Positions 4,108-46,235 of a stretch of 64,000 bases of DNA are shown piece after piece; positions within the stretch are counted from its first letter, which is position 1, and each line of letters begins with the position of its first letter. The notes below the pieces were generated by a model. It saw only the letters and a program-made list of their open reading frames with translations. It was not told the origin of the DNA and searched no databases. The stretch is from Flavobacterium sp. N502536 (lineage in GTDB: Bacteria; Bacteroidota; Bacteroidia; Flavobacteriales; Flavobacteriaceae), in the NCBI RefSeq assembly GCF_025947345.1, contig NZ_CP110011.1, forward strand, positions 2,232,001 to 2,296,000. The letters run 5' to 3'. Made by a program: the position numbers and the translations under genes.

Positions 4108-6657
4108 ATGAATGCATTTATGATTTATTTGCCAATCGTTATGGCAATTTTAGGATTACTTTTCATGGGAATAAAAAGGGCTTGGGTTTTAAAACAAGAT
4201 GCGGGCGACGGAAAAATGAAAGAGATTTCAGAACACATTTACGAGGGAGCCCTCGCCTTTTTAAAAGCAGAATATAAATTATTGACCATTTTTGTAATTA
4301 TTGCCAGTATTGCTTTAGCCGGAATTACTTTTATCCCGGGAGTTAAAACGCATTTATTAATAGTAGTAGCTTTTATATTTGGAGCCTTATTTTCAGCTTA
4401 TGCCGGTAATATCGGGATGAAAATAGCCACTAAAACTAATGTTAGGACTACACAGGCAGCCCGAACAAGTTTACCGCAGGCTTTAAAAGTTTCGTTTAGC
4501 GGAGGTACCGTAATGGGACTTGGTGTTGCAGGTTTAGCTGTTTTAGGACTTACCGGTTTTTTTATCATTTTCTTTAATCTTTTATCAGGAGGGGTGTGGA
4601 AAGACACCGAAACAATGACGGTTGTTCTCGAAACATTAGCCGGGTTCTCGCTTGGTGCTGAATCCATTGCTTTGTTTGCAAGAGTAGGAGGTGGAATTTA
4701 TACCAAGGCTGCCGATGTTGGTGCCGATTTAGTAGGTAAAGTGGAAGCTGGAATTCCGGAAGACGATCCTCGTAATCCGGCTACAATTGCTGATAACGTA
4801 GGAGATAACGTAGGAGACGTTGCCGGTATGGGAGCCGATTTATTTGGTTCGTATGTAGCGACAGTTCTGGCTGCAATGGTTTTAGGAAACTATGTGATTA
4901 AAGATATGGGAGGCAACATTCAGGATGCTTTTGGAGGAATCGGACCCATTTTACTTCCAATGGCAATTGCCGGTTTCGGAATTCTATTTTCGATTATCGG
5001 AACGACACTGGTAAAAATATCCGATGATAATGCCAAAGAAGCACAGGTACAAAAAGCTTTAAATATAGGAAACTGGGTTTCAATTGTTTTAACCGCAATT
5101 GCCTGTTTCTTTTTAGTACAGCATATGCTGCCTGAAACTATGCAAATGAGTTTCTTCGGAGAAGGATCCAAAGACATCTCATCCATGCGTGTTTTTTATG
5201 CCACATTGGTCGGATTAGTGGTGGGTGGAGCTATTTCATCAGTAACCGAATATTATACCGGATTGGGAACAAAACCGGTGATGGCGATTGTACAAAAATC
5301 GTCAACTGGAGCAGGAACAAATGTAATTGCAGGTCTGGCAACCGGAATGATTTCGACCTTTCCAACCGTTTTATTATTTGCTGCTGCCATCTGGATTTCT
5401 TATGCCCTAGCAGGATTTTACGGAGTGGCTTTAGCGGCTTCTGCAATGATGGCTACTACGGCCATGCAATTGGCAATTGATGCTTTCGGACCAATTTCAG
5501 ACAACGCCGGAGGAATTGCCGAAATGAGTGAATTACCAAAAGAAGTGCGTACCAGAACAGATATTTTGGACTCAGTTGGTAATACGACCGCCGCAACCGG
5601 AAAAGGATTTGCGATTGCCTCAGCGGCTTTAACGTCTTTGGCATTGTTTGCAGCTTATGTGACTTTTACCGGAATTGACGGAATCAATATTTTTAAAGCA
5701 CCGGTTTTGGCCATGTTGTTTGTGGGAGGAATGATTCCTGTCGTTTTCTCGGCATTGGCGATGAACTCTGTTGGAAAAGCAGCGATGGATATGGTATATG
5801 AAGTACGTAGACAGTTTAAGGAAATTCCGGGTATTATGGAAGGAACCGGAAAACCTGAGTACGGTAAATGTGTCGAGATTTCAACAAAAGCAGCTTTGCG
5901 CGAAATGATGCTTCCAGGAATTCTAACCATTGGTTTTCCAATTGCAATTGTATTATTAGGTAAATTAGTTTATGCAGACAACAATCAGTTAATAGCTGAA
6001 ATGTTAGGAGGATATATGGCCGGAGTAACGGTATCCGGAGTACTTTGGGCAGTTTTTCAAAACAATGCCGGTGGTGCCTGGGACAATGCTAAAAAATCAT
6101 TTGAAGCCGGAGTTTTAATCAATGGTGAAATGACTTATAAAGGTTCTGATGCACACAAAGCAGCAGTAACAGGAGATACAGTTGGAGATCCGTTTAAAGA
6201 TACATCAGGGCCTTCTATGAACATTTTAATCAAACTGACTTGTTTGATCGGTTTAGTAATTGCACCTATTTTAGGAGAAGGGCATTCGTCTTCAGGAACG
6301 ACCGAAAAAGGGACTTGTTGCAAAATGGAAATGCATGCAGCTGGTGTTTCAAAATGTGGTGATTTCTCTGCAATGAGCAAAGAAGAATGTATTAAAATGT
6401 GCAAAGAAAAAGGCTGTTCAGCCGAGGAAACCGCAAAATGCCTGTCACATTATGATGCCAACGGAAAATATATTCACCAAAAAACAGATTGTTTTGATAC
6501 TACAAAATACAGTAAAAAAAGAGTAGAAGTTAACTTATCAACTGCTAACGGTGTCACAGTAGGAACGGTAACCAAAACCGAAAACGGTAAAACCACTACA
6601 GAAGTTTTTGAAGGAACAGAAGCCGAAGTAAAAGCAAAAATCGAAGCAGTAAAATAA
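4108..6657 (+). CDS. hppA: Membrane-bound ion-pumping pyrophosphatase with Cys-rich C-terminal tail
   Basis: An 849-residue integral membrane pyrophosphatase that couples PPi hydrolysis to ion export. The substrate loop DDPRNPATIADNVGDNVGD is intact. GNTTAATGKG has alanine at residue 495 and glycine at 498, the pattern of K+-dependent enzymes (K+-independent ones carry lysine and threonine there). Whether it pumps H+ or Na+ cannot be settled by eye. The last membrane helix ends near LIGLVIAPILGEG. About 120 further residues follow, with eight cysteines including a CC pair and KEECIKMCKEKGC, then a YDANGKYI segment. In solved family members the C-terminus faces outside the cytoplasm, so this tail is probably periplasmic. 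Confidence 0.93.
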   Translation: MNAFMIYLPIVMAILGLLFMGIKRAWVLKQDAGDGKMKEISEHIYEGALAFLKAEYKLLTIFVIIASIALAGITFIPGVKTHLLIVVAFIFGALFSAYAGNIGMKIATKTNVRTTQAARTSLPQALKVSFSGGTVMGLGVAGLAVLGLTGFFIIFFNLLSGGVWKDTETMTVVLETLAGFSLGAESIALFARVGGGIYTKAADVGADLVGKVEAGIPEDDPRNPATIADNVGDNVGDVAGMGADLFGSYVATVLAAMVLGNYVIKDMGGNIQDAFGGIGPILLPMAIAGFGILFSIIGTTLVKISDDNAKEAQVQKALNIGNWVSIVLTAIACFFLVQHMLPETMQMSFFGEGSKDISSMRVFYATLVGLVVGGAISSVTEYYTGLGTKPVMAIVQKSSTGAGTNVIAGLATGMISTFPTVLLFAAAIWISYALAGFYGVALAASAMMATTAMQLAIDAFGPISDNAGGIAEMSELPKEVRTRTDILDSVGNTTAATGKGFAIASAALTSLALFAAYVTFTGIDGINIFKAPVLAMLFVGGMIPVVFSALAMNSVGKAAMDMVYEVRRQFKEIPGIMEGTGKPEYGKCVEISTKAALREMMLPGILTIGFPIAIVLLGKLVYADNNQLIAEMLGGYMAGVTVSGVLWAVFQNNAGGAWDNAKKSFEAGVLINGEMTYKGSDAHKAAVTGDTVGDPFKDTSGPSMNILIKLTCLIGLVIAPILGEGHSSSGTTEKGTCCKMEMHAAGVSKCGDFSAMSKEECIKMCKEKGCSAEETAKCLSHYDANGKYIHQKTDCFDTTKYSKKRVEVNLSTANGVTVGTVTKTENGKTTTEVFEGTEAEVKAKIEAVK

Positions 6658-19287: not shown

Positions 19288-20538
19288 TTATAATCCGAAA
19301 GCAGCTTTTACCTGATCAACGAAATCAAGTTTTTCCCAGGTAAACAATTCAACAGTAACTGTTTTTTCGTTTCCACCCGGAGCAGAGAAAGTTTTAGTTA
19401 CCGTTTCTGGTTTACGTCCCATGTGTCCGTAAGCTGCAGTTTCGCTGTAAATAGGGTTTCTCAATTTCAAACGTTGCTCGATAAAGTAAGGACGCATATC
19501 AAAAATAGCCTCTACTTTTTTAGCGATTTCACCGTTGGTTAAGTTTATTTTAGAAGTTCCGTAAGTATCAATAAAGATACCCATTGGTTCAGCAACTCCA
19601 ATTGCGTACGAAACCTGTACTAAAATCTCGTCAGCAACACCTGCTGCTACTAAGTTTTTAGCGATATGACGTGTTGCATAAGCAGCACTTCTGTCTACTT
19701 TACTTGGATCTTTTCCAGAGAATGCACCACCACCGTGAGCACCTTTTCCACCGTAAGTATCCACAATGATTTTTCTTCCTGTTAAACCAGTATCTCCGTG
19801 AGGTCCTCCAATAACGAATTTCCCTGTTGGATTGATATGGTAGTTGATTTTATCATTGAATAAATGCGCGTGAGCTGGATTTTTAGCAATGATTCTTGGA
19901 ATCAAAATTTCGATAATATCTTTTTTGATTTTAGCCAGCATTGTAGCTTCTTCGTCAAAATCATCGTGTTGAGTTGAGATTACAATCGCATCAATACGAG
20001 TTGGTTTATTGTCGTCGCTATATTCTAAAGTTACCTGTGATTTAGCATCAGGGCGTAAATAAGTGATTTCCTTATTTTCACGTCTCAGGATAGCTAACTC
20101 CTGTAATAATTTATGAGACAAATCAAGTGCCAATGGCATGAAGTTTTCGGTTTCGTTTGTAGCGTAACCAAACATCATTCCCTGGTCTCCAGCACCTTGC
20201 TCTTCCGGCTTAGCTCTGTCAACTCCTTGATTAATATCTGCTGATTGCTCATGAATTGCCGAAAGAATTCCACAAGAATTAGCCTCAAACATATATTCGC
20301 TTTTCGTATATCCAATTTTACGGATTACTTCGCGAGCAATTTGCTGCACATCAAGATAAGTATTCGATTTTACTTCACCAGCTAAAATTACCTGACCTGT
20401 AGTAACCAGAGTTTCACAAGCTACTTTTGAGTCAGCATCAAATGCCAAAAAGTTATCAATTAATGCATCCGAAATTTGATCTGCAACTTTGTCTGGATGC
20501 CCTTCACTAACAGATTCTGACGTAAATAAATAAGCCAT
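19288..20538 (-). CDS. metK: S-adenosylmethionine synthetase
   Basis: A 416-residue enzyme that makes SAM from methionine and ATP. The signature stretches are intact: [16 protein letters not shown] near the N-terminus, [15 protein letters not shown] (second ATP-binding hexapeptide region) and [19 protein letters not shown]. The length fits the family. It is encoded opposite to the rest of the sulfur cluster. A promoter at 20712-20740 leaves a leader of about 170 nt that can fold into several hairpins and is unlike the S-box riboswitches found upstream of metX and metH in this window. Confidence 0.97.
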
Positions 20539-20711
20539 AATAATTTATTAAATTAAAATTAAGCGAGAAAAAATAATTGCTAAAAAGGGCTAAAGGAGAA
20601 TTTCTGCTTTAGCATTTTTTACTACCGAAATCAATGTTTCAGTACCCATAACGAACCGTTTCATTATGAAGAGGTTGCAATCAGTTCAAATTTTTCCTCT
20701 GTATTCGCGTG
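20539..20711 (-). ncRNA. Structured metK leader, possible SAM-responsive RNA of unknown class
   Basis: Read on the minus strand, an AGAGG...CCTCT stem encloses AACTGATTGCAA. A CATAA...TTATG hairpin and a TACTGAAA/TTTCGGTA hairpin follow. Then comes TGCTAAAGCAG, whose TGC and CAG could pair back with GCA and CTG of CTGATTGCA. The last part, GCTAAAG...CTTTAGC followed by CCTTTTTAG, looks like a terminator. It lacks the S-box core seen at 28271 and 45884. Riboswitch function is inference from gene context and foldability. Confidence 0.45.
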
Positions 20712-21069: not shown

Positions 21070-23916
21070 ATGAAAAAAAATGTAGTATTAGCTTTAGGTC
21101 TTTTGACATTCTCGGGTATTTATGCACAGGAAAATAAAAAAGAGCAGGACAGTTTAAAGAATAATGAACTGACCGAGGTGACCATTGTAGGATCACGCAG
21201 TAAAAACAGAGTAAAAACAGATGTACCAGTTCCGGTTGATGTTTTTAATATTTCCGAAATAACTAAAGGAGCACCGCAAACCAGCGTGACCCAAATTTTA
21301 AATTATGTTGCACCTTCTTTTACCAGTAATGCAACTTCTACGGCTGATGCTACAGATCACGTTGACCCTGCACAGTTAAGAGGTTTAGGGCCAGATCAGG
21401 TTTTAATTCTGGTAAACGGAAAACGAAGACACACCAGTGCATTAGTAAACATTAACGGTTCGCCGGGAAGAGGATCGGTAGGAACAGATTTAAATGCGAT
21501 ACCTTCCTTTGCTATCGAGAGAATCGAAGTTTTGCGCGATGGTGCAGCGGCTCAGTACGGTTCAGATGCTATTGCGGGAGTTATTAATATAGTGCTGAAA
21601 AAGAATGCCAACTATCTTTCAGGAGACATACAGTATGGTACGAACTTATCTTCGGGATCAAATAACTTTAAAGGAGGAGCCGACGGTCAAAATCTGCAAG
21701 TTGATTTAAATTACGGAACTTCCCTGGGTAAAGCAGGTAGTTATTTAAATGTTACCGGTAGCGCTGTGACCAGACAGGCAACGAGTCGTGCGGGAATTAG
21801 AAGCAATGCAATTTTTAATGCTTATAACGCTGTCGAAAACAGAGCGGCTCAGGATGGAGTGCATATTAATTCCTTCTTTAGCAATATTAACAACACGACC
21901 AATTCGGCACAAATTCTGAATTCGTTGAAACAGTATGCGCCAAAAGTTGGTTATTTTACACCGGCACAGCAAAGTGCCATTGCGTCGGCTGGGACTATTG
22001 CGCAAATGCAAACTGCTTTGAATTTTGATACAACGAACAATGAATTGGCGTACAGAGGTCAGGAAAGAAGCGACTATAACATGAGTGTGGGACAGTCTGA
22101 ATTGGCATCGGGGCAATTGTATTACAATACAAAATATCCATTGACCGAAACGACATCATTGTACTCTTTTGGAGGGCTTTCCTATAGAAATGGTAAATCG
22201 TATGCTTTTAACAGGCTTCCAAACGGTTCCGGAACCTTCACGCAGGTGTACCAGAACGGATTTTTACCGGAAATAGAATCTTCGATTTTAGACGCTTCTG
22301 CGGCGGTTGGAGCTACGACAGAATTATTTGGTTTTGATACAGATATCAGTACAAACCTTGGAACAAACTCTTTTAAATATGATGTGAACAATACTATTAA
22401 TGCTACTTTGGGAACCAATTCGGCTTCCAATTTTTATGCCGGTAAAGTTTCGTTTTTGCAAAGTACAACCAACTTGGATTTAAGTAAAAAGTACGATGTT
22501 TTAAATGGACTGAACGTTGCCTTTGGTGGAGAATTCAGATATGAAAATTATAAGATTCAACAAGGAGAAGAAGCTTCTTATGGATTGTATGACACCAACG
22601 GAAATTTGGTTCCCGGAATTTTACCAAGCAATTCACCTTTAATAGTAACCGACTTTTTTGGAAACAAACGAGGAGCAGGAGCACAAGGATTTTCAGGATT
22701 TCAGCCTTCAGATGCTAAAGTTAAAGATAGAAAAAGTGGTGCAGCTTATGTTGATTTAGAGCTAAATGCAACCGAAAACTGGCTTATAAACGGAGCAGCG
22801 CGTTACGAGAACTATTCTGATTTTGGAAGTACGGTTACCTTTAAACTGGCCTCTCTTTTAAAATTGACTGACAATATCAACTGGAGAGTTTCAGGACAAA
22901 CAGGTTTTAGAGCTCCTTCTTTACAGCAAAAGTATTTTGAAAGCAGTTCAACTCAGTTCATAAACGGTTCGCCTTATCAGGTGGGTTATTTCACAAACGA
23001 TTCGCAAGCGGCCAAAAGTATTGGAGTTGAAAACTTAAAAGCGGAGAAATCAAAAAGCATCAGTACAGGATTTACATTTAAAATTCCTGAAGCAAACATT
23101 ACCATTGCAACAGATGCTTATTTTACCAGAATCGACGACAGAGTGGTGCTTACAGGACAGTATGCCAGACCAACAGATGCGCAGATAAGTGGAGCAACAT
23201 CGCCGGAACAAAAAGATGCTTTGACCTTATTTCAACAAGCATTTGACTTAAAAGGAGTTGAAAGAGCTTCCTTCTGGACCAATGGAATCAACTCGGAGAC
23301 TAAAGGTATTGATGTTGTAATTTCACATAAATACAATGTTATTCCCGATTTCACCATCAGAAACGATTTTGCATTGAGCTACAATACCACCAAAAGAGTA
23401 GGAGAGTTAAATGTTCCGCAATCGATCATTAATGCAGGTGGAGAGCCTTTTAAATATTCGTTCTTTCCGGAGTCAAGCCGAATTTATTTAGAAGAAGCTA
23501 TTCCGAAACTAAAAGCCAATTTAATGACGACCTTCAGCATTAAAAAACTGGACATTTATTTAAGAAACAGTTATTTCGGAGCCGTTACAGATCCGGGAGC
23601 AACAGATGTAAATTTAGACGGATCATCTTCTGTTTACGAACATCCGGAATACAGCGCAAAACTGGTGACCGATTTGTCTTTTGGATATCAGATTAACGAG
23701 AAATTCAGATTCACAGTTGGTTTTAATAATATAGGTGATGTGTATCCGGACCGAAATAATCCTGCAACACCGGCTTTTACTAATACAACACCAACCTTAT
23801 CGCCAGCGCCAAGTACAGATTTAAGCAATGCCAATCAGTTTGCTTATTCCAGAGCAGTATCCCAATTTGGATTGAACGGAAGATTTGGTTTTGCACGTTT
23901 AAGTTTTAAATTCTAA
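21070..23916 (+). CDS. TonB-dependent receptor of the sulfur region
   Basis: A 948-residue outer-membrane receptor with a signal peptide ([20 protein letters not shown]). The plug domain follows directly ([61 protein letters not shown] in part) without a carboxypeptidase-regulatory domain. The barrel ends in [11 protein letters not shown] with the C-terminal phenylalanine. The plug is well conserved, as in active energy-coupled importers. It sits behind the Met/Cys leader peptide and a shared operator-like motif, so it is probably induced by Met or Cys shortage and may import an organic sulfur compound or a methionine-pathway cofactor such as cobalamin. The substrate is inference only. Confidence 0.9.
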
Positions 23917-23929
23917 AATATAAGAATTA

Positions 23930-24100
23930 AGATTGGCCACAGATTGTACAGATTAAACAGATTTGTTTTATTCTTTGATTTGTGGCTAATTTTTTAAAGA
24001 GATACGAATGATTTTATAGTGCGTAGCTTCGGTATTAAGCTGAACAGGGAAATAAAAACCTGTGTTAATTTGTTTAATCTGTGATTATTTTTCTAGCGTA
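23930..24100. repeat. Imperfect inverted repeat, non-coding
   Basis: CCACAGATTGTACAGATTAA on the left is mirrored by TTGTTTAATCTGTGATTATT on the right. It is typical intergenic repeat material. No gene is visible between the receptor stop and the next leader promoter. Confidence 0.5.
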
Positions 24101-24155
24101 AGACCAGCATTCACAATGGGTAATAAAAATTTTACATTAAATATCACTATTTAAT

Positions 24156-24186
24156 TTGGTAGTTCAGAAAATACTTATTACATTTA
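24156..24186 (+). promoter_or_regulatory. Promoter of leader peptide 2 and metY
   Basis: TTG at 24156-24158, a 20-nt spacer, and TACATTTA at 24179-24186 (last base differs from consensus). The spacing equals that of leaders 1 and 3. CTATAGAATTAGTCG lies across the likely start point and resembles the CTA...TAG motifs elsewhere in the region. Confidence 0.5.
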
Positions 24187-24238
24187 CTCTATAGAATTAG
24201 TCGAATTAAAAAAAGCATTAATTTTAAATCAAATAAAA

Positions 24239-24319
24239 ATGAAAACAATAGCAAATAGTATGATGATGTGTTGTGAGATGATGCAAATGTGCATCCCAAA
24301 TTGCTATTGCCAAAAGTGA
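24239..24319 (+). CDS. Met/Cys-rich leader peptide 2 (attenuation of metY unit)
   Basis: A 26-codon frame: MKTIANSMMMCCEMMQMC, then IPNCYCQK. It has seven Met and five Cys, the richest of the three leaders, with runs MMMCC and MMQMC. Such a composition is very unlikely by chance. It is followed by a small hairpin (TTATAGTT/AACTATAA at 24335-24352) and then a strong terminator at 24351. Shortage of Met-tRNA or Cys-tRNA would stall the ribosome in the MMMCC run. The downstream genes are a small protein of unknown function and O-acetylhomoserine sulfhydrylase, which fits direct feedback. Confidence 0.72.
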   Translation: MKTIANSMMMCCEMMQMCIPNCYCQK

Positions 24320-24350
24320 AAGAGTGAATCTTTGTTATAGTTAGAACTAT

Positions 24351-24386
24351 AAGCCCTTTTGGTCGCCATCCGAAAGGGCTTTTTTT
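24351..24386 (+). terminator. Attenuator 2
   Basis: AAGCCCTTTTGG-TCGCCAT-CCGAAAGGGCTT followed by T7. Its left end overlaps by two bases a preceding hairpin (24335-24352), an arrangement that would allow alternative pairing. Confidence 0.85.
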
Positions 24387-24410
24387 AATGCTGAAACTAA
24401 AACGAAGATC

Positions 24411-24599
24411 ATGAAAACACTACATATTATATTAAGAGAGATTGTATACCGATTGAAAACAGATTTTAAACGATTTGCAGGGATACTTAAAAACAAAAAA
24501 GCAAATGCAGTTAAAATAAAAGGAGAGTTGTATTCGAGTGAGTCAAACTCCCTGCTCTTTCAAATGTATTTACACGAAGAAGAAGATCTTTTTATATGA
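24411..24599 (+). CDS. Small protein A with C-terminal SLLFxMY...LFI motif, function unknown
   Basis: A 62-residue protein between attenuator 2 and metY. The N-terminal half is basic and helical (LREIVYRLKTDFKRFAGIL); the C-terminus is SLLFQMYLHEEEDLFI. The same C-terminal pattern, SLLFLMYSKENETLFI, ends the 67-residue protein at 27878-28081, while the N-terminal halves are unrelated. Both genes occupy the same place: right after a Met/Cys attenuator and just before a methionine-synthesis gene. I do not recognise the family. A small regulator or partner of the sulfhydrylase pathway is possible. It starts 25 nt after the terminator and ends 68 nt before metY. Confidence 0.7.
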   Translation: MKTLHIILREIVYRLKTDFKRFAGILKNKKANAVKIKGELYSSESNSLLFQMYLHEEEDLFI

Positions 24600-24667
24600 G
24601 ATAAAAAACGACTTAAGAAATCAATAATAAACCAAAAGCTATTCACAATATCTAAAACTAAGAAATC

Positions 24668-25972
24668 ATGAGCACACAAAAATTTGCCACAAACGCACTA
24701 CACGCAGGACACGATGTTACTAAAAATGCAGGAACCAGAGCAGTTCCAATTTACCAGACCTCCTCGTATGTTTTTAACAATTCAGATCACGCAGCCAATT
24801 TGTTTGGTCTTGCTGAAGCCGGATTCATTTACACCCGATTGAACAATCCGACAAACGATGTTTTAGAACAACGTCTTGCAGCGCTTGAAGGCGGAATTGG
24901 GGCAGTAGTTACAGCCTCAGGAGCCTCGGCAATTTCGACTGCTTTACTGACTTTGCTAAAAGCAGGAGATCACATTGTGGCTTCGAACAGTTTATATGGA
25001 GGGACTTATAATTTACTGAGCGTAACTTTACCTCGTTTAGGGATTACAACCACCTTTGTAGACCCTTCAAAACCTGAGAACTTTACCAAAGCAGCCAAAG
25101 AAAATACACGTGCTTTTTTTGTAGAATCTTTAGGAAATCCAAAATTAGATGTACTAGACCTGAAAGGGATTTCAGCAGAAGCTAAAAACTTTAAAGTTCC
25201 TTTTATTGTTGACAATACAGTGGCAACACCTTATTTGTTAAACCCAATCGAATACGGAGCTAATATTGTCATTCACTCCCTAACCAAATATATTTCAGGA
25301 AACGGAACTTCATTAGGAGGCGCCATTATCGATGCCGGAACTTTTGACTGGGCCAACGGTAAATTTCCTGAATTTACAGAACCTTCCCCAGGATACCATG
25401 GCTTGGTGTATCACGAAGCTTTAGGAAATGCAGCTTTCATAGCAAAAGCCAGAATCGAAGGTTTACGTGATTTTGGCGCGGCTCTGAGTCCGTTTAATGC
25501 TTTTCAAATCATACAGGGCTTAGAAACCTTACCAATCCGAATTCAGAAACACAGTGAAAATGCGCTGGCATTGGCTTCGTGGTTAGAAGAACAGGAAGAA
25601 GTAGCCTGGGTAAATTATCCGGGATTAAAAACCAATAAGTATTACGACTTGTCACGACAGTACTTACCAAAAGGACAAAGTGGGGTAGTTACTTTTGGAT
25701 TAAAAGGCGGTTTCGAAGCAGCCAAAAAAGTAGTAGACGAAACAAAACTCTTCTCGCTTTTGGCCAACATTGGTGATACAAAATCATTAATCATTCATCC
25801 CGCAAGTACAACGCACCAGCAATTGTCGGATGCGGAACAATTAGAAACGGGAGTTTCAAAAGATCTGGTGCGACTTTCTGTCGGACTGGAAGATATCGAG
25901 GATTTAATAGCTGATCTGCAAACTGTTTTTGCAAGCGTGACCCAGTCACAATACAGCATTAATAAAAACTAG
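24668..25972 (+). CDS. metY: O-acetylhomoserine sulfhydrylase
   Basis: A 434-residue PLP enzyme of the Cys/Met-metabolism family. It makes homocysteine from O-acetylhomoserine and sulfide. The PLP lysine is K207 in HSLTKYISGNGTSLGG, and FVESLGNPKLDVLDL, IVDNTVATPYL and the C-terminal IHPASTTHQQL are as expected. The length (about 430) and the FTEPSPGYHGLVYHE insertion are those of MetY and not of cystathionine synthases. It is expressed from the leader 2 unit after small protein A, and ends at the terminator at 25996. Confidence 0.93.
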   Translation: MSTQKFATNALHAGHDVTKNAGTRAVPIYQTSSYVFNNSDHAANLFGLAEAGFIYTRLNNPTNDVLEQRLAALEGGIGAVVTASGASAISTALLTLLKAGDHIVASNSLYGGTYNLLSVTLPRLGITTTFVDPSKPENFTKAAKENTRAFFVESLGNPKLDVLDLKGISAEAKNFKVPFIVDNTVATPYLLNPIEYGANIVIHSLTKYISGNGTSLGGAIIDAGTFDWANGKFPEFTEPSPGYHGLVYHEALGNAAFIAKARIEGLRDFGAALSPFNAFQIIQGLETLPIRIQKHSENALALASWLEEQEEVAWVNYPGLKTNKYYDLSRQYLPKGQSGVVTFGLKGGFEAAKKVVDETKLFSLLANIGDTKSLIIHPASTTHQQLSDAEQLETGVSKDLVRLSVGLEDIEDLIADLQTVFASVTQSQYSINKN

Positions 25973-25995
25973 GTTTTTTTGTTTTTTGTTTGAAA

Positions 25996-26037
25996 AATTG
26001 CCTTTAGCAGCGTGAGTTCTGCTAGAGGTGATTTTTT
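25996..26037 (+). terminator. Terminator after metY
   Basis: AATTGCCTTTAGCAG pairs imperfectly with CTGCTAGAGGTGATT across a loop of about 8 nt, ending in TTTTTT. Confidence 0.65.
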
Positions 26038-26061
26038 ATAAAAAGTAAATCAGTATAAAAA

Positions 26062-26160
26062 TTTTTAAATCCTATTAAGTAATACAGATCAACTTGAGGA
26101 AAACCGGAGCGTAACGCAAGGCTTTACAGTTACATGTATCACTTATAGGATTTGAAAAAT
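26062..26160 (+). ncRNA. Structured leader with long closing stem before the homoserine-dehydrogenase paralog
   Basis: AAATCCTATTAAGTAATAC (26067-26085) pairs with GTATCACTTATAGGATTT (26136-26153), and flanking TTTTT/AAAAA extend the stem. The 50-nt interior includes CTTGAGG, AAAACCGG, GCGTAACGC, CAAGGC and the pair GTAAC/GTTAC. The right strand ends 16 nt before the ATG at 26176. The layout is riboswitch-like, but I cannot match it to a known class. Confidence 0.45.
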
Positions 26161-26175
26161 TAAAAATTAAAAATT

Positions 26176-27264
26176 ATGTCAAAGCTTAAAATAAATATCA
26201 TCCTTTTTGGAATTGGAAATATCGGAAGTACTTTGATCAATCAAATTATCGAAAGTCAGGAGTTTTTTCTCGAAAGTAAAAACATCGATTTTCATTTTCC
26301 GATTATCACAAATTCAACAGTAGCTTTTTTCGAGAAAGAAGGCGTAGGATATGCCTGGGAAACCAATTTTCTGGAACTGGCAGTGCCTTTTAAAGTGCAG
26401 GATATTATTGAATTTGCTAAAGAAAATGAATTTGAGAACTTAATTGCCGTAGATGCTACTGCTAGTGATGAATTAATACATCATTACAATACCTTGATCG
26501 AAAACGGATTTAATATAGTAGCGGTAAATAAAAAAGCCAATACATTGCCGATTGATTTGTATAAAGAGATCAGAGCAAACCTTAAAAAGTACGACAAAGA
26601 GTTTTTGTATGAAACATCAGTGGATACCGGTTTCCCGGTTTTACAAACCTTAAGAGATTTGTATTATTCGGGTGAAAAAATCACCAAGATCCGGGGTGTT
26701 TTTTCAGATAACCTGAGTTATGTATTCAATCGGTTTGCCAACGAAGACACCTCTTTCTCTTCTTTGTTGAAAGATGCAAGTTTGCTTGGATTGATGCGTT
26801 CAACGTTTAAAGAAGACCTGTCCGGAAATGACACCGCCAGAAAATTACTGATTCTCACGAGGGAAATCGGAAAAGATTTTGAGCTCTCGGATATAAAAAT
26901 CAATTCGCTTATACAAGAAGAACATCTGGAGCAAAATGGTATTCTGAATAAAGAAGCGGTCGACAGATCGTTTAAAATTGCTAAAATTAGCCAGGCTGAT
27001 AATAATGTTCTGCGTTATGTAGGTGAATTTGATGTGGTAAAAAACACCTTAGAAGTGAAACTGGTTTCAGAGCCCGTTTCGTCAGCAATAGGTCAACTGA
27101 AAGGATCAGACACCATTTTTGAAATTTATACGCAATCGTACGCAGCTGTTCCAATCGTAATTCAAAGTGCTTCGGCATGTAAACAAGCCATTTCGAGAGG
27201 AGTAATTACAGACATTTTGAAAGTAGCTGAAAAAATCAAAAACAAAGAAGCAGTCTGGCTGTAA
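26176..27264 (+). CDS. Homoserine-dehydrogenase-like protein with altered active site
   Basis: A 362-residue protein similar over its whole length to the dehydrogenase half of the ThrA fusion at 29441-31855. The NAD-binding start GIGNIGSTLINQI is kept, as are D219 and K223 in SGNDTARK. However, the catalytic region EPDPRED of the partner is LMRSTFKED here, placing Arg at the position of the catalytic Glu. TNVGAGLPLI has become TSVDTGFPVL, GVFSGTLSYL has become GVFSDNLSYV, and the C-terminal GAGAGSAVTARGV has become SASACKQAISRGV. The pattern suggests a paralog that lost or changed activity, perhaps a regulatory partner of ThrA. It lies between metY and the leader 3 unit behind a structured leader. 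Confidence 0.8.
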   Translation: MSKLKINIILFGIGNIGSTLINQIIESQEFFLESKNIDFHFPIITNSTVAFFEKEGVGYAWETNFLELAVPFKVQDIIEFAKENEFENLIAVDATASDELIHHYNTLIENGFNIVAVNKKANTLPIDLYKEIRANLKKYDKEFLYETSVDTGFPVLQTLRDLYYSGEKITKIRGVFSDNLSYVFNRFANEDTSFSSLLKDASLLGLMRSTFKEDLSGNDTARKLLILTREIGKDFELSDIKINSLIQEEHLEQNGILNKEAVDRSFKIAKISQADNNVLRYVGEFDVVKNTLEVKLVSEPVSSAIGQLKGSDTIFEIYTQSYAAVPIVIQSASACKQAISRGVITDILKVAEKIKNKEAVWL

Positions 27265-27384
27265 GTGGTTCCAAAATAATAGTAAGTTGTTCTTTGATAT
27301 AATGAAACAGGAAAGTTTTTTGTGTTATTTTTTGTAAGATTTATCTTTTAAATTTGACAATGTTAATTTTGTAAGATGTTTTTT

Positions 27385-27405
27385 AACGGAAAAAAGCCGT
27401 TTTTT
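27385..27405 (+). terminator. Weak terminator after the dehydrogenase paralog
   Basis: A short stem AACGG/CCGTT is followed by T6. The stem is only 5 bp. Confidence 0.4.
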
Positions 27406-27438
27406 AACGTTTTTTGGGATTAAATTGTTGATCCCCAC

Positions 27439-27469
27439 TTGTATAATTGAGAAAATATTCGCAAATTTG
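27439..27469 (+). promoter_or_regulatory. Promoter of leader peptide 3
   Basis: TTG at 27439-27441, a 20-nt spacer, and CAAATTTG at 27462-27469, in the string TTCGCAAATTTG also found at leader 1. The start point near 27476 leaves about 150 nt before the leader ATG. This stretch contains the palindrome TTAGTATACTGA and no other clear gene. Confidence 0.6.
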
Positions 27470-27628
27470 TAAGACTTCAAAACTAAAGAAAGAATAAATT
27501 TAGTATACTGAGTAAAAGTGATGCCGATTGAAACAAAAATGGAATAGATTTTGTTTTTGGCTGATCTAAAAAAGAGAGTAAATTAAAAATATTTTGAGAG
27601 TTTAAGGAAGTTTATTAAAATAGAAAAA

Positions 27629-27730
27629 ATGCAAGAATTTTTTAAAATAGCAATCACGTCCCAGATGAATAAGTCCCTACAGATGAATAAGATGTTTAAC
27701 GTCGCACGTATTTGTGTACGCGTCTGTTGA
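27629..27730 (+). CDS. Met/Cys-containing leader peptide 3 (attenuation of the metX unit)
   Basis: A 33-codon frame ending ...QMNKMFNVARICVRVC. It has four Met (including MNK twice) and two Cys at the very end, close to the downstream hairpin. An internal ATG at 27665 (MNKSLQMNKMF...) would give a 21-codon peptide, the same length as leader 1; the start is undecided. The terminator at 27762 follows within 32 nt. It is less Met/Cys-rich than leader 2, but the order promoter, short frame, terminator and small SLLF protein is the same. Confidence 0.55.
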   Translation: MQEFFKIAITSQMNKSLQMNKMFNVARICVRVC

Positions 27731-27761
27731 TACTAAAAGTATATATAAGTTATAAAAACTT

Positions 27762-27798
27762 AAACCCTTTTGGTATTCAAACCCAAAAGGGTTTTTTT
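27762..27798 (+). terminator. Attenuator 3
   Basis: AAACCCTTTTGG paired with CCAAAAGGGTTT across a 9-nt loop, followed by a T tract. The CCCTTTTGG left arm is also present in attenuator 2. Confidence 0.85.
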
Positions 27799-27877
27799 AT
27801 TCCATTTGGTTACGATAACAAAGAGATAAACATAAAATAAAGATAATAATACGCAAACTAACATAAACTTAAATATC

Positions 27878-28081
27878 ATGAGCACACTAAACTACTTAAC
27901 AAAGACTTTTTCAACATTGAAAAACATTAGAGCTAGAAGAAACAATCCGCCACCACCAACAAATGAATTGGTACATCCGAGATTCGGAATGACTGAGACA
28001 GATAAAAAAGTGGAGAAAAAAAATCCGGACTCATTATTGTTTTTGATGTATTCAAAAGAGAATGAAACGCTTTTTATCTAA
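27878..28081 (+). CDS. Small protein B with C-terminal SLLFxMY...LFI motif, function unknown
   Basis: A 67-residue protein behind attenuator 3. The N-terminal part is basic (LKNIRARRNN) with a PPPPTNELVHPRFGM stretch; the C-terminus SLLFLMYSKENETLFI matches small protein A (24411-24599) at SLLF-MY and LFI. No signal peptide or membrane segment. It precedes the S-box and metX, paralleling protein A before metY. The conserved tail after a variable basic body suggests a docking motif for a common partner. Function unknown. Confidence 0.7.
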   Translation: MSTLNYLTKTFSTLKNIRARRNNPPPPTNELVHPRFGMTETDKKVEKKNPDSLLFLMYSKENETLFI

Positions 28082-28211
28082 ATCGGGAAGCATCATAAAA
28101 TAGGGGGAAACCTGCTTAATTTTACTGGGCAAATTGTTCGGTAATTTTTTGCGTACACTAGTTTTTGTTTGAATTATGTTTAAGAAATTGAGGAATCAGT
28201 TTCGATAAAAT

Positions 28212-28242
28212 TTGTTTGTTTGAGAAATTAGTAGTTAATTTG
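28212..28242 (+). promoter_or_regulatory. metX operon promoter
   Basis: TTG at 28212-28214, a 20-nt spacer, and TTAATTTG at 28235-28242 (one base off consensus). Transcription would start near 28249, just before the S-box P1 stem at 28271. Confidence 0.55.
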
Positions 28243-28270
28243 CACCTTTAAGTTCAAAAACGTATTGAAA

Positions 28271-28377
28271 TGTTATAAAGAAAGGACGAGGGATTAGACC
28301 CGATGAATCCTTAGCAACCCTTCGTTAATTCGAAGAAGGTGCTGCATTCTACCACGCCCAAACGTGGAAAGATAACA
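28271..28377 (+). ncRNA. SAM-I (S-box) riboswitch upstream of metX
   Basis: The S-box core is clear: GAGGGATTAGACCCGATGAA, then CCTTAGCAACC, a TTCG...CGAA hairpin (P3), GGTGCTGCATTCTACC, and a P4 hairpin CCACGCCCAAACGTGG. P1 is TGTTAT (28271-28276) with ATAACA (28372-28377). SAM binding would lower metX expression. No U-rich terminator follows; AGAAATTTTCT and the pair AAGAAAGG/ACTTTCTTT downstream may form the expression platform, so control may be translational. Confidence 0.92.
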
Positions 28378-28449
28378 ACAAGAAATTTTCTGGTTTCACT
28401 CTAGACTTTCTTTCTAATATTTCCACATACAAATCAAAAATAAAAAGAT

Positions 28450-29439
28450 TTGAAATTGGAAAATATACCAAGTCCCATTATAATTCAGGAATTCATCACC
28501 GAAAGTGGTGTGTCCTATCCATCATTACCCTTAAGTTTTACACTTTCCGGTTTACCATTATTTAGCGCGCCTATAGTTTTGGTCAATCATGCTTTAACAG
28601 GAAATGCTGAGGTCACCGGTGCAAATGGCTGGTGGAATGACCTCATTGGTGAAGACAAAACCATCGATACCCATAAATTTACCGTACTGGCTTTTAATGT
28701 ACCCGGAAACGGAAATGATTCGTTTATCATCGAAAACTATCAGGATTTCACCACCAGAGATATTGCCCGCATTTTTATTAAAGGTTTAGAACTTTTAAAT
28801 ATTCACCAATTGCACACCATCATTGGAGGTTCGGTTGGCGGAGGCATCGCCTGGGAAATACTTGCATTAGAACCTAACATTACTCAAAACCTAATTCCCA
28901 TTGCAACAGATTGGAAGTCGACCGACTGGATGATCGCCAATTGCTATTTACAAGAACAAATTTTGAATAATTCTTCAAAACCTATTGAGGATGCCAGAAT
29001 TCATGCAATGTTGTGTTACAGGTCCCCTGAATCATTCAAAGAGAAATTTCAACGTACCATTAATGCCAATCGCCCGGTTTTTAATATTGAAAGCTGGCTG
29101 GCACATCACGGCGAAAAACTACAAAAAAGATACCAATTGGCTTCGTACAAACTCATGAACCAATTGCTAAAAACCATAGACATCACCAGAAACAGAGAAG
29201 ATTTCGAGACTTTGTTATCCAAAACAGACGCCGCGATTCACATTGTCGGAATCAATTCGGATTTGTTTTTTATACCCAAAGAAAATCGGGAGACTTATCA
29301 GGAATTAAAAAAGTTCAAAGACAATGTTTTTTACAGCGAAATAGATTCTGTTCACGGACATGATGCTTTTTTAATCGAGTACAAACAATTAGATCATTTA
29401 CTTGCCGATATTTTTAAGGCAGAAACAATAGAAAAATAA
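28450..29439 (+). CDS. metX: Homoserine O-acetyltransferase
   Basis: A 329-residue alpha/beta-hydrolase-fold acyltransferase that acetylates homoserine with acetyl-CoA. The nucleophile elbow is GGSVGGG; GINSDLFF and SVHGHDAFL carry the catalytic Asp and His. The frame has a TAA stop at 28441-28443 and no upstream ATG, so the start is TTG at 28450 (or 28456), a rare start that may help translational control by the S-box. It is one base from the thrA ATG (29441), so the two are coupled, joining homoserine synthesis and its acetylation. Confidence 0.92.
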   Translation: MKLENIPSPIIIQEFITESGVSYPSLPLSFTLSGLPLFSAPIVLVNHALTGNAEVTGANGWWNDLIGEDKTIDTHKFTVLAFNVPGNGNDSFIIENYQDFTTRDIARIFIKGLELLNIHQLHTIIGGSVGGGIAWEILALEPNITQNLIPIATDWKSTDWMIANCYLQEQILNNSSKPIEDARIHAMLCYRSPESFKEKFQRTINANRPVFNIESWLAHHGEKLQKRYQLASYKLMNQLLKTIDITRNREDFETLLSKTDAAIHIVGINSDLFFIPKENRETYQELKKFKDNVFYSEIDSVHGHDAFLIEYKQLDHLLADIFKAETIEK

Positions 29440-29440
29440 A

Positions 29441-31855
29441 ATGAAAATATTAAAATTTGGCGGTAAATCGTTATCAAACGGAGAAGGACTTAATAAAGTA
29501 GTTTCAATTATTACAGATAAAGTACAGCAAAACGAAAAAATTGCAGTAGTAGTTTCGGCTCGCGGAGATGCTACAGATGAGCTGGAATACATTTTAAAAA
29601 TTGCGGCTAAAAACGGCAACTATAAACCCTTATTTGAGAATTTTAAAACGTACCAGGTTTCAGATTACCCTGAGGTAGATTTGTCCGAAGAATTTAATGT
29701 ACTGGAGAAACTTTTCGAAGGAGTAAGTCTGATAGGAGATTACAGCAATAAAATCAAAGATCAGATTTTATCAAAAGGCGAGCTGCTTTCGGCTAAATTA
29801 CTGACAGCTATTTTAATTGGAAAAGGGGTTCCTGCTAACTTTGTCGATTCAAGAGAATTGTTGAAAACCGATTCTAAATTTGGAGATGCACAGCCTTTGG
29901 AGCAGCTTTCTAAGAAAAATGTCATCAATTATTTCAAAGAACACAACGGCACAACAGTTAACATCGTAACCGGTTTTATCGGGTCTAACAATAACAACGA
30001 TACGACCACTTTAGGAAGAAACGGCAGTAACTATACCGCATCGCTAATTGCGAATTATCTAAATGCCGAAGAGTTGCAAAACTTTACGCATGTTGACGGA
30101 ATTTACACAGCAAATCCTGATTTGGTTGCCGATGCTAAAAAGATCGAATACCTGTCGTTTAATGAAGCCAACGAATTAGCCAATTTTGGAGCTACCATTT
30201 TACATGCTAAAACCATCATTCCATTGTTGGAAAAAAACATTCCGCTTCGTATTTTAAATACCTTTAATCATGAAAATCGCGGAACTTTGATTACCTCTGA
30301 TTCTGCTAAAGAAGGAATTAAAACACTTTCTGTTTTAGAGAACGTTTCTTTGGTTAATCTTGAAGGTCGCGGATTATTGGGGAAATCGGGTGTAGATGCC
30401 CGAATTTTTAAAGTAATGGGCGATCATAACATCAGTGTGAGTATCATTTCACAAGGTTCTTCAGAGCGAGGCATTGGTCTTGTTGTAGCAACTGAGAAAG
30501 CTACTCTGGCCATGGTCGAACTGGAAAAAGAATTCGAAAATGATTTTTATTCCAAAGATGTAAATCAGATTACAGTAACCGATAATGTTTCAGTAATTTC
30601 GATTATCGGACAGGATTTGAGTACTTTCCATAAACCCTACACAGCATTAATCAAAAATAAAATTGTTCCGATTTTATTTAACAACACCGTTACGGGTAAA
30701 AACGTGAGTTTGGTGGTTAAAAAAACAGAACTGCATAAAGCTTTAAATGTAATTCACGGTGAGATTTTCGGAGTTTCCAAAAAAATCAACATTGCCATTA
30801 TCGGTCACGGACTAGTGGGAGGAACTCTAATCAATCAGATTTTAGAATCGACTGCCGCTATCGAAAAACGAAAAGACGTGAGACTGAATGTTTTTGCAAT
30901 TGCCAATTCAAAAAAGGTACTTTTAAACAAAAACGGAGTAAGTTCAAACTGGAAAACAGCTATTGATAAAGAAGGACTTGCGTATACCATTCAGGATATT
31001 ATTGCTTATGCCAACCAACATCATCTAGAAAACTTAATCGCTATCGATAATACAGCGAGCGCTTCTTTTGTTGAGAATTATATTCCGTTGGTTGAGAGCA
31101 GTTTCGATCTGATCTCTTCTAATAAAGTGGCCAATACCCTGAGTTATGGATTTTATAAAGAATTGAGAAAAGCTTTAGCCGAAAATCAGAAGAATTATTT
31201 ATACGAAACCAATGTTGGTGCGGGATTGCCATTGATTGATACCATTAAATTATTGCATCTTTCGGGAGAAAATATCACAAAAATAAAAGGAGTATTCTCC
31301 GGAACATTGAGTTATTTATTCAATAATTTTTCTGCAAAAGACGTTCCGTTTAGTGAAATTTTGCAGGAGGCCATTGATAACGGATATACAGAACCGGACC
31401 CTCGTGAGGATTTATGCGGAAATGATGTAGGAAGAAAATTATTGATTTTAGCGAGAGAACTGGACTTGCAGAATGAGTTTGAAGAAATTTCCATTCAGAA
31501 CTTAATTCCGGAGCATTTGCGTGAAGGAAACGTTGGAGACTTCTTAACGAAATTGAAAGAGTTCGACCCGATTTATGAAAAAATAAAAGCCGATCAAAAG
31601 CCAAATCACGTATTAAGATACATTGGTGAATTGTCAGGAGATTTGCAAAACGATAAAGGAATTTTGGAAGTAAAATTAGTTTCAGTGCCTTCTGATACTG
31701 CCTTGGGCGGATTAAAAGGATCTGATTCTTTCTTCGAAATTTATACAGAATCTTACGGAGACCGTCCAATCGTAATTCAGGGAGCTGGTGCAGGCTCTGC
31801 TGTAACGGCGAGAGGAGTATTTGGTGACATTTTGAGATTATCAGATAAAGGGTAA
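29441..31855 (+). CDS. thrA: Bifunctional aspartokinase / homoserine dehydrogenase
   Basis: An 804-residue fusion. The aspartokinase (residues about 1-290) starts KFGGKSLSNGEGL and has ILHAKTIIPLLEKNIPLRI. ACT-type regulatory segments follow (about 295-440: GKSGVDARIFKVMGDHNISV, VSIISQGSSERGI). Homoserine dehydrogenase is at about 450-804, with GHGLVGGTLINQI, the intact EPDPREDLCGNDVGRK active site and GAGAGSAVTARGV. It makes aspartyl phosphate and later converts the semialdehyde to homoserine. It overlaps no gene but is 1 nt after metX, so it belongs to the S-box/leader 3 operon. The kinase motif is KFGGKS where many enzymes have KFGGTS. Confidence 0.95.
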   Translation: MKILKFGGKSLSNGEGLNKVVSIITDKVQQNEKIAVVVSARGDATDELEYILKIAAKNGNYKPLFENFKTYQVSDYPEVDLSEEFNVLEKLFEGVSLIGDYSNKIKDQILSKGELLSAKLLTAILIGKGVPANFVDSRELLKTDSKFGDAQPLEQLSKKNVINYFKEHNGTTVNIVTGFIGSNNNNDTTTLGRNGSNYTASLIANYLNAEELQNFTHVDGIYTANPDLVADAKKIEYLSFNEANELANFGATILHAKTIIPLLEKNIPLRILNTFNHENRGTLITSDSAKEGIKTLSVLENVSLVNLEGRGLLGKSGVDARIFKVMGDHNISVSIISQGSSERGIGLVVATEKATLAMVELEKEFENDFYSKDVNQITVTDNVSVISIIGQDLSTFHKPYTALIKNKIVPILFNNTVTGKNVSLVVKKTELHKALNVIHGEIFGVSKKINIAIIGHGLVGGTLINQILESTAAIEKRKDVRLNVFAIANSKKVLLNKNGVSSNWKTAIDKEGLAYTIQDIIAYANQHHLENLIAIDNTASASFVENYIPLVESSFDLISSNKVANTLSYGFYKELRKALAENQKNYLYETNVGAGLPLIDTIKLLHLSGENITKIKGVFSGTLSYLFNNFSAKDVPFSEILQEAIDNGYTEPDPREDLCGNDVGRKLLILARELDLQNEFEEISIQNLIPEHLREGNVGDFLTKLKEFDPIYEKIKADQKPNHVLRYIGELSGDLQNDKGILEVKLVSVPSDTALGGLKGSDSFFEIYTESYGDRPIVIQGAGAGSAVTARGVFGDILRLSDKG

Positions 31856-31912
31856 GGATTTTAGAATTTAGATTGCAGATTTTAGAGTTTAGATTTCTGA
31901 TTTGTAAGCCCA

Positions 31913-32049: not shown

Positions 32050-32085
32050 TTGCAAAGAATAAAAAATAAAAAAAATAACAACACA

Positions 32086-32514
32086 ATGAAAGTAACTTTG
32101 AACAGAGTAAACGACGCGTTTCATTTTAAACTTAAAAATGAACGTGGTCATGTAGTGGATGTTGACAGCAGAGCCGAATTTGGCGGAAGCGATTTAGGAG
32201 CAAGTCCAATGGAATTAGTATTAATGGGAGTTGCGGGATGCAGTGCTATTGATATGATTTCGATCTTAAAAAAGCAACGTCAGGAAATCACTTCTTTTAA
32301 TGCTGAGGTAGAGGGAGAGCGTGTACAGGTTGGTGAAGCCAAACCTTTTAAAGAAATCAATGTGGTTTTTTATTTAGAAGGAGATGTTAACCCTGAAAAA
32401 GCACAGCGGGCTGCCCAGCTTTCTTTTGAGAAATATTGCTCGGTTTCTAAAACAATTGAGCCTACCGCTACAGTAAAATATAAAGTGGTACTGAACAACG
32501 AAGAATTAAAGTAA
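32086..32514 (+). CDS. OsmC family protein
   Basis: From the ATG at 32086 the protein has 142 residues. The TTG at 32050 lies in the repeat and would add an unconserved lysine/asparagine stretch. It has the OsmC/Ohr pattern: GASPMELVLMGVAGCSAIDMISIL with the first active-site cysteine, and FEKYCSVSKTI with the second. Such proteins reduce organic hydroperoxides using their cysteine pair, or bind thiol metabolites. It lies between thrA and the MetZ-like gene, so it may serve sulfur or thiol redox balance in this cluster. That role is inferred from context. Confidence 0.88.
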   Translation: MKVTLNRVNDAFHFKLKNERGHVVDVDSRAEFGGSDLGASPMELVLMGVAGCSAIDMISILKKQRQEITSFNAEVEGERVQVGEAKPFKEINVVFYLEGDVNPEKAQRAAQLSFEKYCSVSKTIEPTATVKYKVVLNNEELK

Positions 32515-45861: not shown

Positions 45862-45883
45862 CACTGTTCTTAAAATTATTGAC

Positions 45884-45996
45884 AGTTATCACGAAAGGCG
45901 GAGGGAAAGACCCAATGAAACCTTAGCAACCCTTTATCATAAAGAAGGTGCTACATTCTACTTAATACAAATTCATTGTATTTAAGATAGATAACA
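45884..45996 (+). ncRNA. SAM-I (S-box) riboswitch upstream of metH
   Basis: S-box core: GGCGGAGGGAAAGACCCAATGAA (split: GAGGGAAAGACCCAATGAAA), CCTTAGCAACCC, TTTATCATAAAG (P3), AAGGTGCTACATTCTACTTA, a P4 hairpin CTTAATACAA/TTGTATTTAAG, and P1 GTTATC (45885-45890) with GATAAC (45990-45995). The metH ATG is 240 nt downstream. A TTACTAAAGCAATTTAGTAA hairpin (46047-46066) lies in the gap but no terminator follows it, so the expression platform is unclear. Confidence 0.9.
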
Positions 45997-46235
45997 CAAA
46001 TACATTACACGTATTTCTCAAAACTTTTCCAGAAAACATACAATATTTACTAAAGCAATTTAGTAACAGGAGCGAATCATTGGCGCATTTTTGCAGTCAA
46101 CAGTTCCCGCTTTCGCCTATATCTATTCGTTTTACTACGAGGATGTTGGCGCATCGGGTTTAAAACCGGAAATAGAATTAAATAAACTTAGCAGCTCAGC
46201 GCCTTAGTGTCTTAGCAGCTAAAAGAGGAAACAAT

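Follow-up and report, generated by a model that had tools for sequence, protein, structure and literature searches.

Short open reading frames (ORFs) with a conserved C-terminus beside the stop codon are familiar from regulatory arrest peptides such as TnaC and SecM. In the leader-peptide attenuators of amino-acid operons, a leader ORF carries the presumed regulated amino acids and is combined with mutually exclusive hairpins, and F. psychrophilum is one species in which such attenuation has already been inferred for operons of this kind (PMC9723704). In sulfur metabolism, CysK receives the C-terminal Ile tail of CysE, and CdiA-CT and EGL-9 dock likewise in CysK homologues (PMC5562914). Here we analyzed a stretch of 64,000 nucleotides (the window; G000:C1:2232001-2296000) from the 5.05 Mb genome of Flavobacterium sp. 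N502536, in which two small ORFs, ORF1 and ORF2, are each located behind a methionine/cysteine (Met/Cys) attenuator, near the methionine genes metY and metX, and end in a similar tail. We consider it probable that they encode paralogous trans-acting small proteins, which are made in Met/Cys shortage and carry a C-terminal docking tail for one shared partner. The locus resembles the leader-peptide attenuators of amino-acid operons in its leader ORFs and exclusive hairpins, but the first gene released here would be that of a tiny tail protein instead of an enzyme, and the tail proteins come in addition to the leader peptides.

Both ORFs had been pointed out in a preliminary description of the sequence, and they are indeed present and end exactly in SLLFQMYLHEEEDLFI and SLLFLMYSKENETLFI. 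BLASTP aligned the two products over their last 18 residues only (11/18 identical, expectation value (E) 3e-5). The N-terminal halves, which had been called unrelated, turned out to be strongly diverged instead, since a profile-profile comparison between 28 metY-side (ORF1-type) and 35 metX-side (ORF2-type) proteins yielded a full-length alignment with an E of 1.2e-13 and 98% probability. In addition, the metY-side profile retrieved metX-side proteins from 32,045 ORFs at E values of 1e-6 to 4e-4, with L115 at 0.14, and tails of an intermediate form, ...MY[SA]AENENLFI, were found in the metY-side copies of L086, L087, L094, L101 and L103. ORF1 and ORF2 are therefore probably paralogues that have diverged within a single small-protein family of Flavobacterium. 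The proposal of a new family tied to sulfur amino-acid genes was upheld; conservation is strongest in the tail, and Pfam and NCBIfam scans gave no match for ORF1 or ORF2 at E<=1. The family is apparently undescribed, as no account of it was found in literature titles and abstract openings, supplementary files, where such ORFs may be listed, lying outside this scope. ORF1 itself matched a Flavobacterium metagenome assembly (100%) and F. collinsii (94%), and relatives with the same end and a very variable remainder were returned from 150 Flavobacterium genomes searched at the protein level and from a contig scan. In the window genome, a wide DNA pattern of the tail matched 39 sites on the forward and 62 on the reverse strand and was uninformative. 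The one match of a Protein Data Bank profile search, Crov588 (6nyr), covered profile positions 27-55 and had a whole-sequence E of 7.5e-6; no stretch of it passed singly, and it was taken as chance.

Copies of the tail were searched for in 398 Flavobacterium genomes with a 28-column tail profile at a match threshold of E<=0.001. Matches were obtained in 171 of the genomes, many with two copies ~2.3 or 3.5 kb apart; this count is a lower bound, as G017 and G621 were missed and yet carry a copy when read directly. Forty loci picked from the tail matches were analyzed alongside the window and five named contigs, and the annotation of the fetched loci was limited to eight query proteins. On the metX side, 40 copies were found by pattern and 39 aligned, a frameshifted copy being excluded; on the metY side, 32 were found by pattern and 31 aligned (29 distinct), a copy without an in-frame ATG being excluded, and five further copies, found later by profile, stand outside the selection counts. 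The ratio of nonsynonymous to synonymous substitution rates (dN/dS) was calculated by the Nei-Gojobori method from related sequences, so that the pair counts are not independent. The 39 metX-side copies had a dN/dS of 0.045 over the last 17 alignment columns, against 0.27 for the remainder, and 12 of the 16 tail positions were invariant. Because a tail-shaped pattern by itself selects for conserved ends, a second metX-side count included eight extra copies found by profile, position or looser pattern. All 47 copies together gave a dN/dS of 0.059 in the last 16 columns versus 0.30 elsewhere, with 8/16 positions invariant and a terminal Ile in 47/47, and the eight added copies alone gave 0.074 in the tail versus 0.52 in the rest. 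The 31 metY-side copies gave 0.12 versus 0.58; their last residue is Ile in 20, Val in 9, Leu in 1 and Arg in 1, and the five further copies end in Ala (3) or Val (2). Synonymous differences amounted to 0.53-0.71 per site. The low dN/dS of the tail despite this synonymous divergence indicates that the tail ORFs are coding sequences selected at the protein level. Thus, the tail proved to be conserved in relatives, on which the preliminary description had staked its proposal together with translation of the genes; as for the latter, the ORFs evolve as coding sequences, which is consistent with translation.

The placement of each ORF behind a Met/Cys attenuator, as previously suggested, was confirmed: a leader ORF with several Met/Cys codons and an intrinsic terminator precede both. 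In comparison with shuffled sequences, the RNA folded far better for leader 1 (z -4.9) and moderately better for leader 2 (z -2.5). Leader ORFs with at least four Met/Cys were present in 32/32 metY-side and 34/40 metX-side loci, and mutually exclusive antiterminator and terminator hairpins in 28/32 and 34/40, respectively, as counted by a motif search without a shuffled control. Ten loci were missed by the hairpin motif; six of them seem to have variant terminators, and in L107, L108, L110 and L113 the attenuator precedes metY or its remnant. A tail-blind search for the first ORF behind attenuators, conducted in loci fetched for other reasons, yielded six small ORFs of 58-68 amino acids, all ending in LFI (L115, L116, L123, L132, which is ORF2 of the window, L243 and L251); apart from metY and metX, the only others were a pair of ORFs 30 and 35 amino acids long. 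Since attenuation has already been proposed for F. psychrophilum (PMC9723704), the switches of the tail genes are of a known kind, and by analogy with classical attenuation we infer that they are induced by Met/Cys shortage. The terminator hairpin of the metY side (CCCTTTTGGTNGCCATCCGAAAGGG in most loci) is nearly identical across species; its near invariance, loop included, suggests a constraint beyond termination.

A third form of the family was found in four genomes (G009, G011, G080 and G098) of the 80 searched, which were drawn from the 227 negatives of the tail profile. It is an ORF of 54-58 amino acids that ends in ...LLILQINAEENEFLFI or similar (ENEFLFI or ENEILFI) and follows, as judged by eye, a CCTTTTGG attenuator with its leader ORF. 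The tail score alone does not lift this form above noise (its two copies scored 31 and 29, and a chance ORF end 30), and its profile match to the other forms, C-terminus to C-terminus, has an E of 2.5e-4 with an HH probability of only 43%. We accepted it on account of its attenuator position, the four concordant genomes, the shared ENExLFI end and this match. An OsmC-like gene follows directly, with metX farther on (L281-L283 and L288; assigned by Pfam OsmC for G011 and by resemblance for the other three). Another OsmC-like gene is present in the window at 32050-32514.

The two ORFs had been described as occupying the same place in two operons. This holds for ORF1, which lies directly before metY: a tail ORF is directly upstream of metY in 32 loci (fetched, named and window), with the start of metY 44-111 nucleotides behind it, and in the window the spacer is 68 nucleotides with no terminator visible by eye. 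It probably does not hold for ORF2, which is separated from metX by a predicted terminator, a promoter-like element and an S-adenosylmethionine (SAM)-I riboswitch. In 40/40 fetched loci, as annotated with the eight query proteins, a tail ORF (39 by pattern, L112 by profile) is the closest feature preceding metX. The promoter-like element (T[AT]3-4TTTG[CT], in a stricter form GTT[TA]ATTTG[CT]) was found between ORF2 and metX in 40/40 loci, mostly 151-154 nucleotides past the ORF2 stop, versus 7/40 shuffled controls for the looser form. Several of the scanned relatives likewise carry SAM-I before metX. A permissive scan detected a terminator-like hairpin behind ORF2 in 35/40 loci versus 21/40 controls made by shuffling two-base blocks, and the 102-nucleotide stretch downstream of ORF2 folded no better than shuffles (z -1.0), so that the terminator is plausible, the scan alone being weak evidence for it. 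With the promoter-like element, the riboswitch and the predicted terminator all preceding metX, ORF2 most likely forms a separate transcription unit, and metX would have a promoter and riboswitch of its own. Three loci (L107, L108 and L110) run from leader and attenuator through metY and the tail ORF to metX (SAM-I was checked in L107 only). An intact tail ORF stands beside a mere metY fragment in L113 (residues 347-413, 49% identity, 4747-4944 of the oriented locus), indicating that the tail gene outlives its metY neighbor. L113 resembles a gene-loss intermediate, and such a loss may explain the position of the tail gene directly behind the attenuator elsewhere.

In the mechanism we favor, a shortage of charged Met or Cys tRNA would stall the ribosome in the leader peptide, the antiterminator would form in place of the terminator, and the tail gene would be transcribed. 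The product would be a cysteine-free protein of ~55-70 amino acids with an N-terminal helix, a variable linker and the ~16-residue tail LLxxMYxxENExLFI; many metX-side copies carry a NELxHPRF motif in the linker, and no cysteine occurs in the 70 aligned tail proteins. AlphaFold2 predicted one helix (3-22) and two short ones (53-57 and 60-66) from 35 metX-side sequences (predicted local distance difference test (pLDDT) 70, predicted template modeling score (pTM) 0.26), and helices at 2-42 and 48-60 from 28 metY-side sequences (pLDDT 72, pTM 0.28). The tail would serve as a docking peptide for one partner common to both paralogues, and binding would adjust the sulfur or methionine flux in trans. 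If this is correct, a protein layer is added to the sulfur amino-acid control of Flavobacterium, over attenuators and SAM riboswitches. The short and strict tail provides a clear target for naming the partner, and the first ORF after a leader-peptide attenuator provides a way to find small-protein genes, which could uncover other such families. A test for precursors of ribosomally synthesized and post-translationally modified peptides was negative, with no Cys in the 70 proteins and the long ORFs at 23,900-31,900 of the window being metY, homoserine dehydrogenase, metX and aspartokinase; the relatives were scanned with the eight proteins only.

Several observations weigh against this reading. 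The tail profile found no copy in 227 of the 398 Flavobacterium genomes, and in G002 the SAM-I metX locus is present and no tail copy was found there; with more than half of the sampled genus and the G002 locus lacking a copy, the tail gene is dispensable. Broken copies exist as well: the metX-side copy of L078 (G581) is frameshifted just before the tail, and the metY-side copy of L097 (G091) has no in-frame ATG, through either decay or sequencing error. The family is confined to Flavobacterium as far as seen, which weakens the claim of a general function: among 299 family-level genomes, the tail profile scored better than 0.01 only in two Flavobacterium genomes, the best other E of 0.0106 being taken as negative, and among 239 genomes a broader profile gave, outside Flavobacterium, one match at 0.0027 with an internal stop, also taken as negative. 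Moreover, the loci were selected via tail matches, which favors conserved tails, and fewer copies were found otherwise; and the AlphaFold2 confidence is low, its pTM values being too weak for a fold search.

As to the partner, the preliminary description had suggested that the tail could dock to a common one such as the sulfhydrylase or the homoserine enzymes. MetY was undetected at E<=1e-100 in 22/54 tail-bearing genomes, several of them single-contig (the 54 were hand-picked and mostly single-copy, so that 22/54 is not a genus-wide rate), and it was therefore rejected as an obligate partner and is not supported as a general one. The gene for the neighboring 362-amino-acid homoserine dehydrogenase is likewise missing at the locus itself in several tail-bearing genomes; this neighbor is not supported as a general partner either. 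More likely, the partner is an enzyme kept by the bearers, that is MetX, MetK or the CysE/CysM pair, rather than MetY. A CysM of the window type was found in 168/171 tail-bearing genomes, the three exceptions being less than 70% complete, and conversely the tail profile matched in 168/181 CysM-bearing genomes; of the other 13, at least G017 and G621 carry a tail when read directly. This co-occurrence may reflect shared ancestry, both marking one clade, and was not taken as proof. In one form of docking, the free tail of this Met/Cys-shortage-induced regulator would be a detached plug that fits the active site or an allosteric site of a sulfur enzyme (CysM, MetX or MetK) and works in trans as the CysE tail does in cis. 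We consider this rather unlikely; if true, flavobacteria would control methionine/cysteine flux at the protein level, beyond attenuators and SAM riboswitches.

Sixteen CysE-like proteins, all below the curated cysE cut-off, were compared at their ends: six end in NFVI, NFII, FYSI or FFSI, and ten, including that of the window genome, lack the Ile. In these loci (L162-L177), the six Ile-ending proteins adjoin a cysteine synthase gene (CysK by NCBIfam in the scanned G011 and G007), and nine of the ten without Ile adjoin a CysM-like gene, assigned by NCBIfam for the window genome and by resemblance for the rest. Of the three cysKM-family matches in the window genome, one is CysM, one is a cysteate synthase and the third, below cut-offs, is cysteate/cystathionine beta-synthase-like; CysK was not found. 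The cysteate synthase (L299; G000:C1, around 3640139-3641059) is over the curated cut-off (NF053679), and we take it to be a possible sulfonolipid gene.

The tail peaks in conservation at the extreme C-terminus, beside the stop codon of a short ORF upstream of methionine genes, as in TnaC and SecM, and might accordingly be a nascent-chain arrest sequence, with a metabolite-dependent stall at the ORF end controlling the next gene. Nine residues follow MY in 39/39 metX-side copies, as this idea would have it, and metY is located behind ORF1. The spacing to the stop varies on the metY side, where nine residues follow in 31/36 copies and 10 or 11 in 5/36, and the stop codons vary (TAA 24, TGA 6, TAG 2). 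Furthermore, the promoter-like element and SAM-I stand between ORF2 and metX, unlike in TnaC and SecM, so that metX need not share a transcript with ORF2 (the terminator-like hairpin being the weak point of this argument), the tail ORF lies behind metY or its remnant in four loci, and the remainder of the metX-side protein is under purifying selection as well. We judge arrest to be distinctly unlikely. It is extremely improbable that the ORFs are non-functional as proteins and owe their conservation to RNA structure or chance. The region is dense in regulatory RNA, but the tail residues hold while synonymous sites diverge, and only L078 and L097 among the closely examined copies have a broken frame or no start; we regard this explanation as already refuted by the codon pattern, unless the pattern is an artefact of the tail-based choice of loci.

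C-terminal degrons often have terminal hydrophobic residues, and the tail is common to both forms while the rest diverges; it could thus be a degradation signal or protease-adaptor site that gives a short life, with the function residing in the N-terminal part. The invariant tail positions of the 47 metX-side copies, which include the polar or acidic S, E and N, are more specific than one would expect of such a signal, and the metY-side N-terminal part is only weakly constrained; we hold a degron to be as improbable as arrest. Slightly more improbable still is that the tail stands in for the C-terminal Ile peptide of CysE, inhibiting or recruiting O-acetylserine sulfhydrylase. The tail proteins do share with CysE and its imitators CdiA-CT and EGL-9 (PMC5562914) a free terminal Ile after hydrophobic residues in most members (47/47 metX-side; Ile or Val in 29/31 aligned metY-side copies) and a place in sulfur metabolism. 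The scarcity of Ile ends among the CysE-like proteins (10/16 without, that of the window genome too) and the near-universal CysM of the tail bearers would also suit a stand-in. On the other hand, the tail belongs to a separate small protein, its ~16 conserved residues exceed the need of terminal-Ile docking, the last residue is Ala, Leu or Arg in part of the metY-side copies, and the CysM co-occurrence may be shared ancestry. We lowered this idea because no CysK was found in the window genome, its three cysKM-family matches being other enzymes, and CysM is reported as not joining CysE (PMC12895370).

Table 1 Features of the tail-protein locus (positions within the window)
Feature	Position	Strand	Basis or remark
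Type-1 leader peptide ORF MKTIANSMMMCCEMMQMCIPNCYCQK, 11 Met/Cys after start	24239..24319	+	ORF reading
CCAAAAG antiterminator strand, pairs with CUUUUGG of terminator 5' arm	24310..24316	+	predicted
Attenuator terminator 1, stem and T-run, about -18.5 kcal/mol	24351..24387	+	predicted
ORF1, 62-amino-acid tail protein, ATG start	24411..24599	+	predicted co-transcription with metY
ORF1 conserved tail SLLFQMYLHEEEDLFI	24549..24596	+	sequence comparison
metY, O-acetylhomoserine/O-acetylserine sulfhydrylase	24668..25972	+	TIGR01326
Homoserine dehydrogenase-like protein, 362 amino acids	26176..27264	+	matches below curated cut-offs
Type-2 leader peptide ORF, 33 residues, ...VARICVRVC end, 5 Met/Cys after start	27629..27730	+	ORF reading
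ATACTAAAAG antiterminator strand, pairs with CUUUUGGUAU of terminator 2	27730..27739	+	predicted
Attenuator terminator 2	27762..27798	+	predicted
ORF2, 67-amino-acid tail protein, ATG start	27878..28081	+	predicted stand-alone transcription unit
ORF2 conserved tail SLLFLMYSKENETLFI	28031..28078	+	sequence comparison, selection count
Predicted intrinsic terminator after ORF2 (hairpin and T-run)	28122..28150	+	prediction; shuffles often give such hairpins
Promoter-like -7 element TTAATTTGC before SAM-I riboswitch	28235..28243	+	40/40 loci vs 7/40 shuffled
SAM-I riboswitch	28270..28378	+	RF00162
metX, homoserine O-acetyltransferase-like	28450..29439	+	below curated cut-offs
Bifunctional aspartate kinase/homoserine dehydrogenase	29441..31855	+	NF006959, over cut-off

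Upstream of the features in Table 1, and divergent from the tail-protein locus, a SAM-II riboswitch (20599-20705, minus strand) precedes metK (19288-20538, minus strand), so that SAM-II, SAM-I and the two Met/Cys attenuators all lie within about 8 kb of the window. A second SAM-I riboswitch is present at 45883-45997 (plus strand). A TonB-dependent receptor gene (21070-23916) is located between metK and leader 1; in some relatives, L080, L083 and L084 among them, metK was found and the receptor was not. Near the metY/metX cluster of L107, a match to the Flavo-1 RNA (RF01705) was found at 998-1075 on the minus strand.

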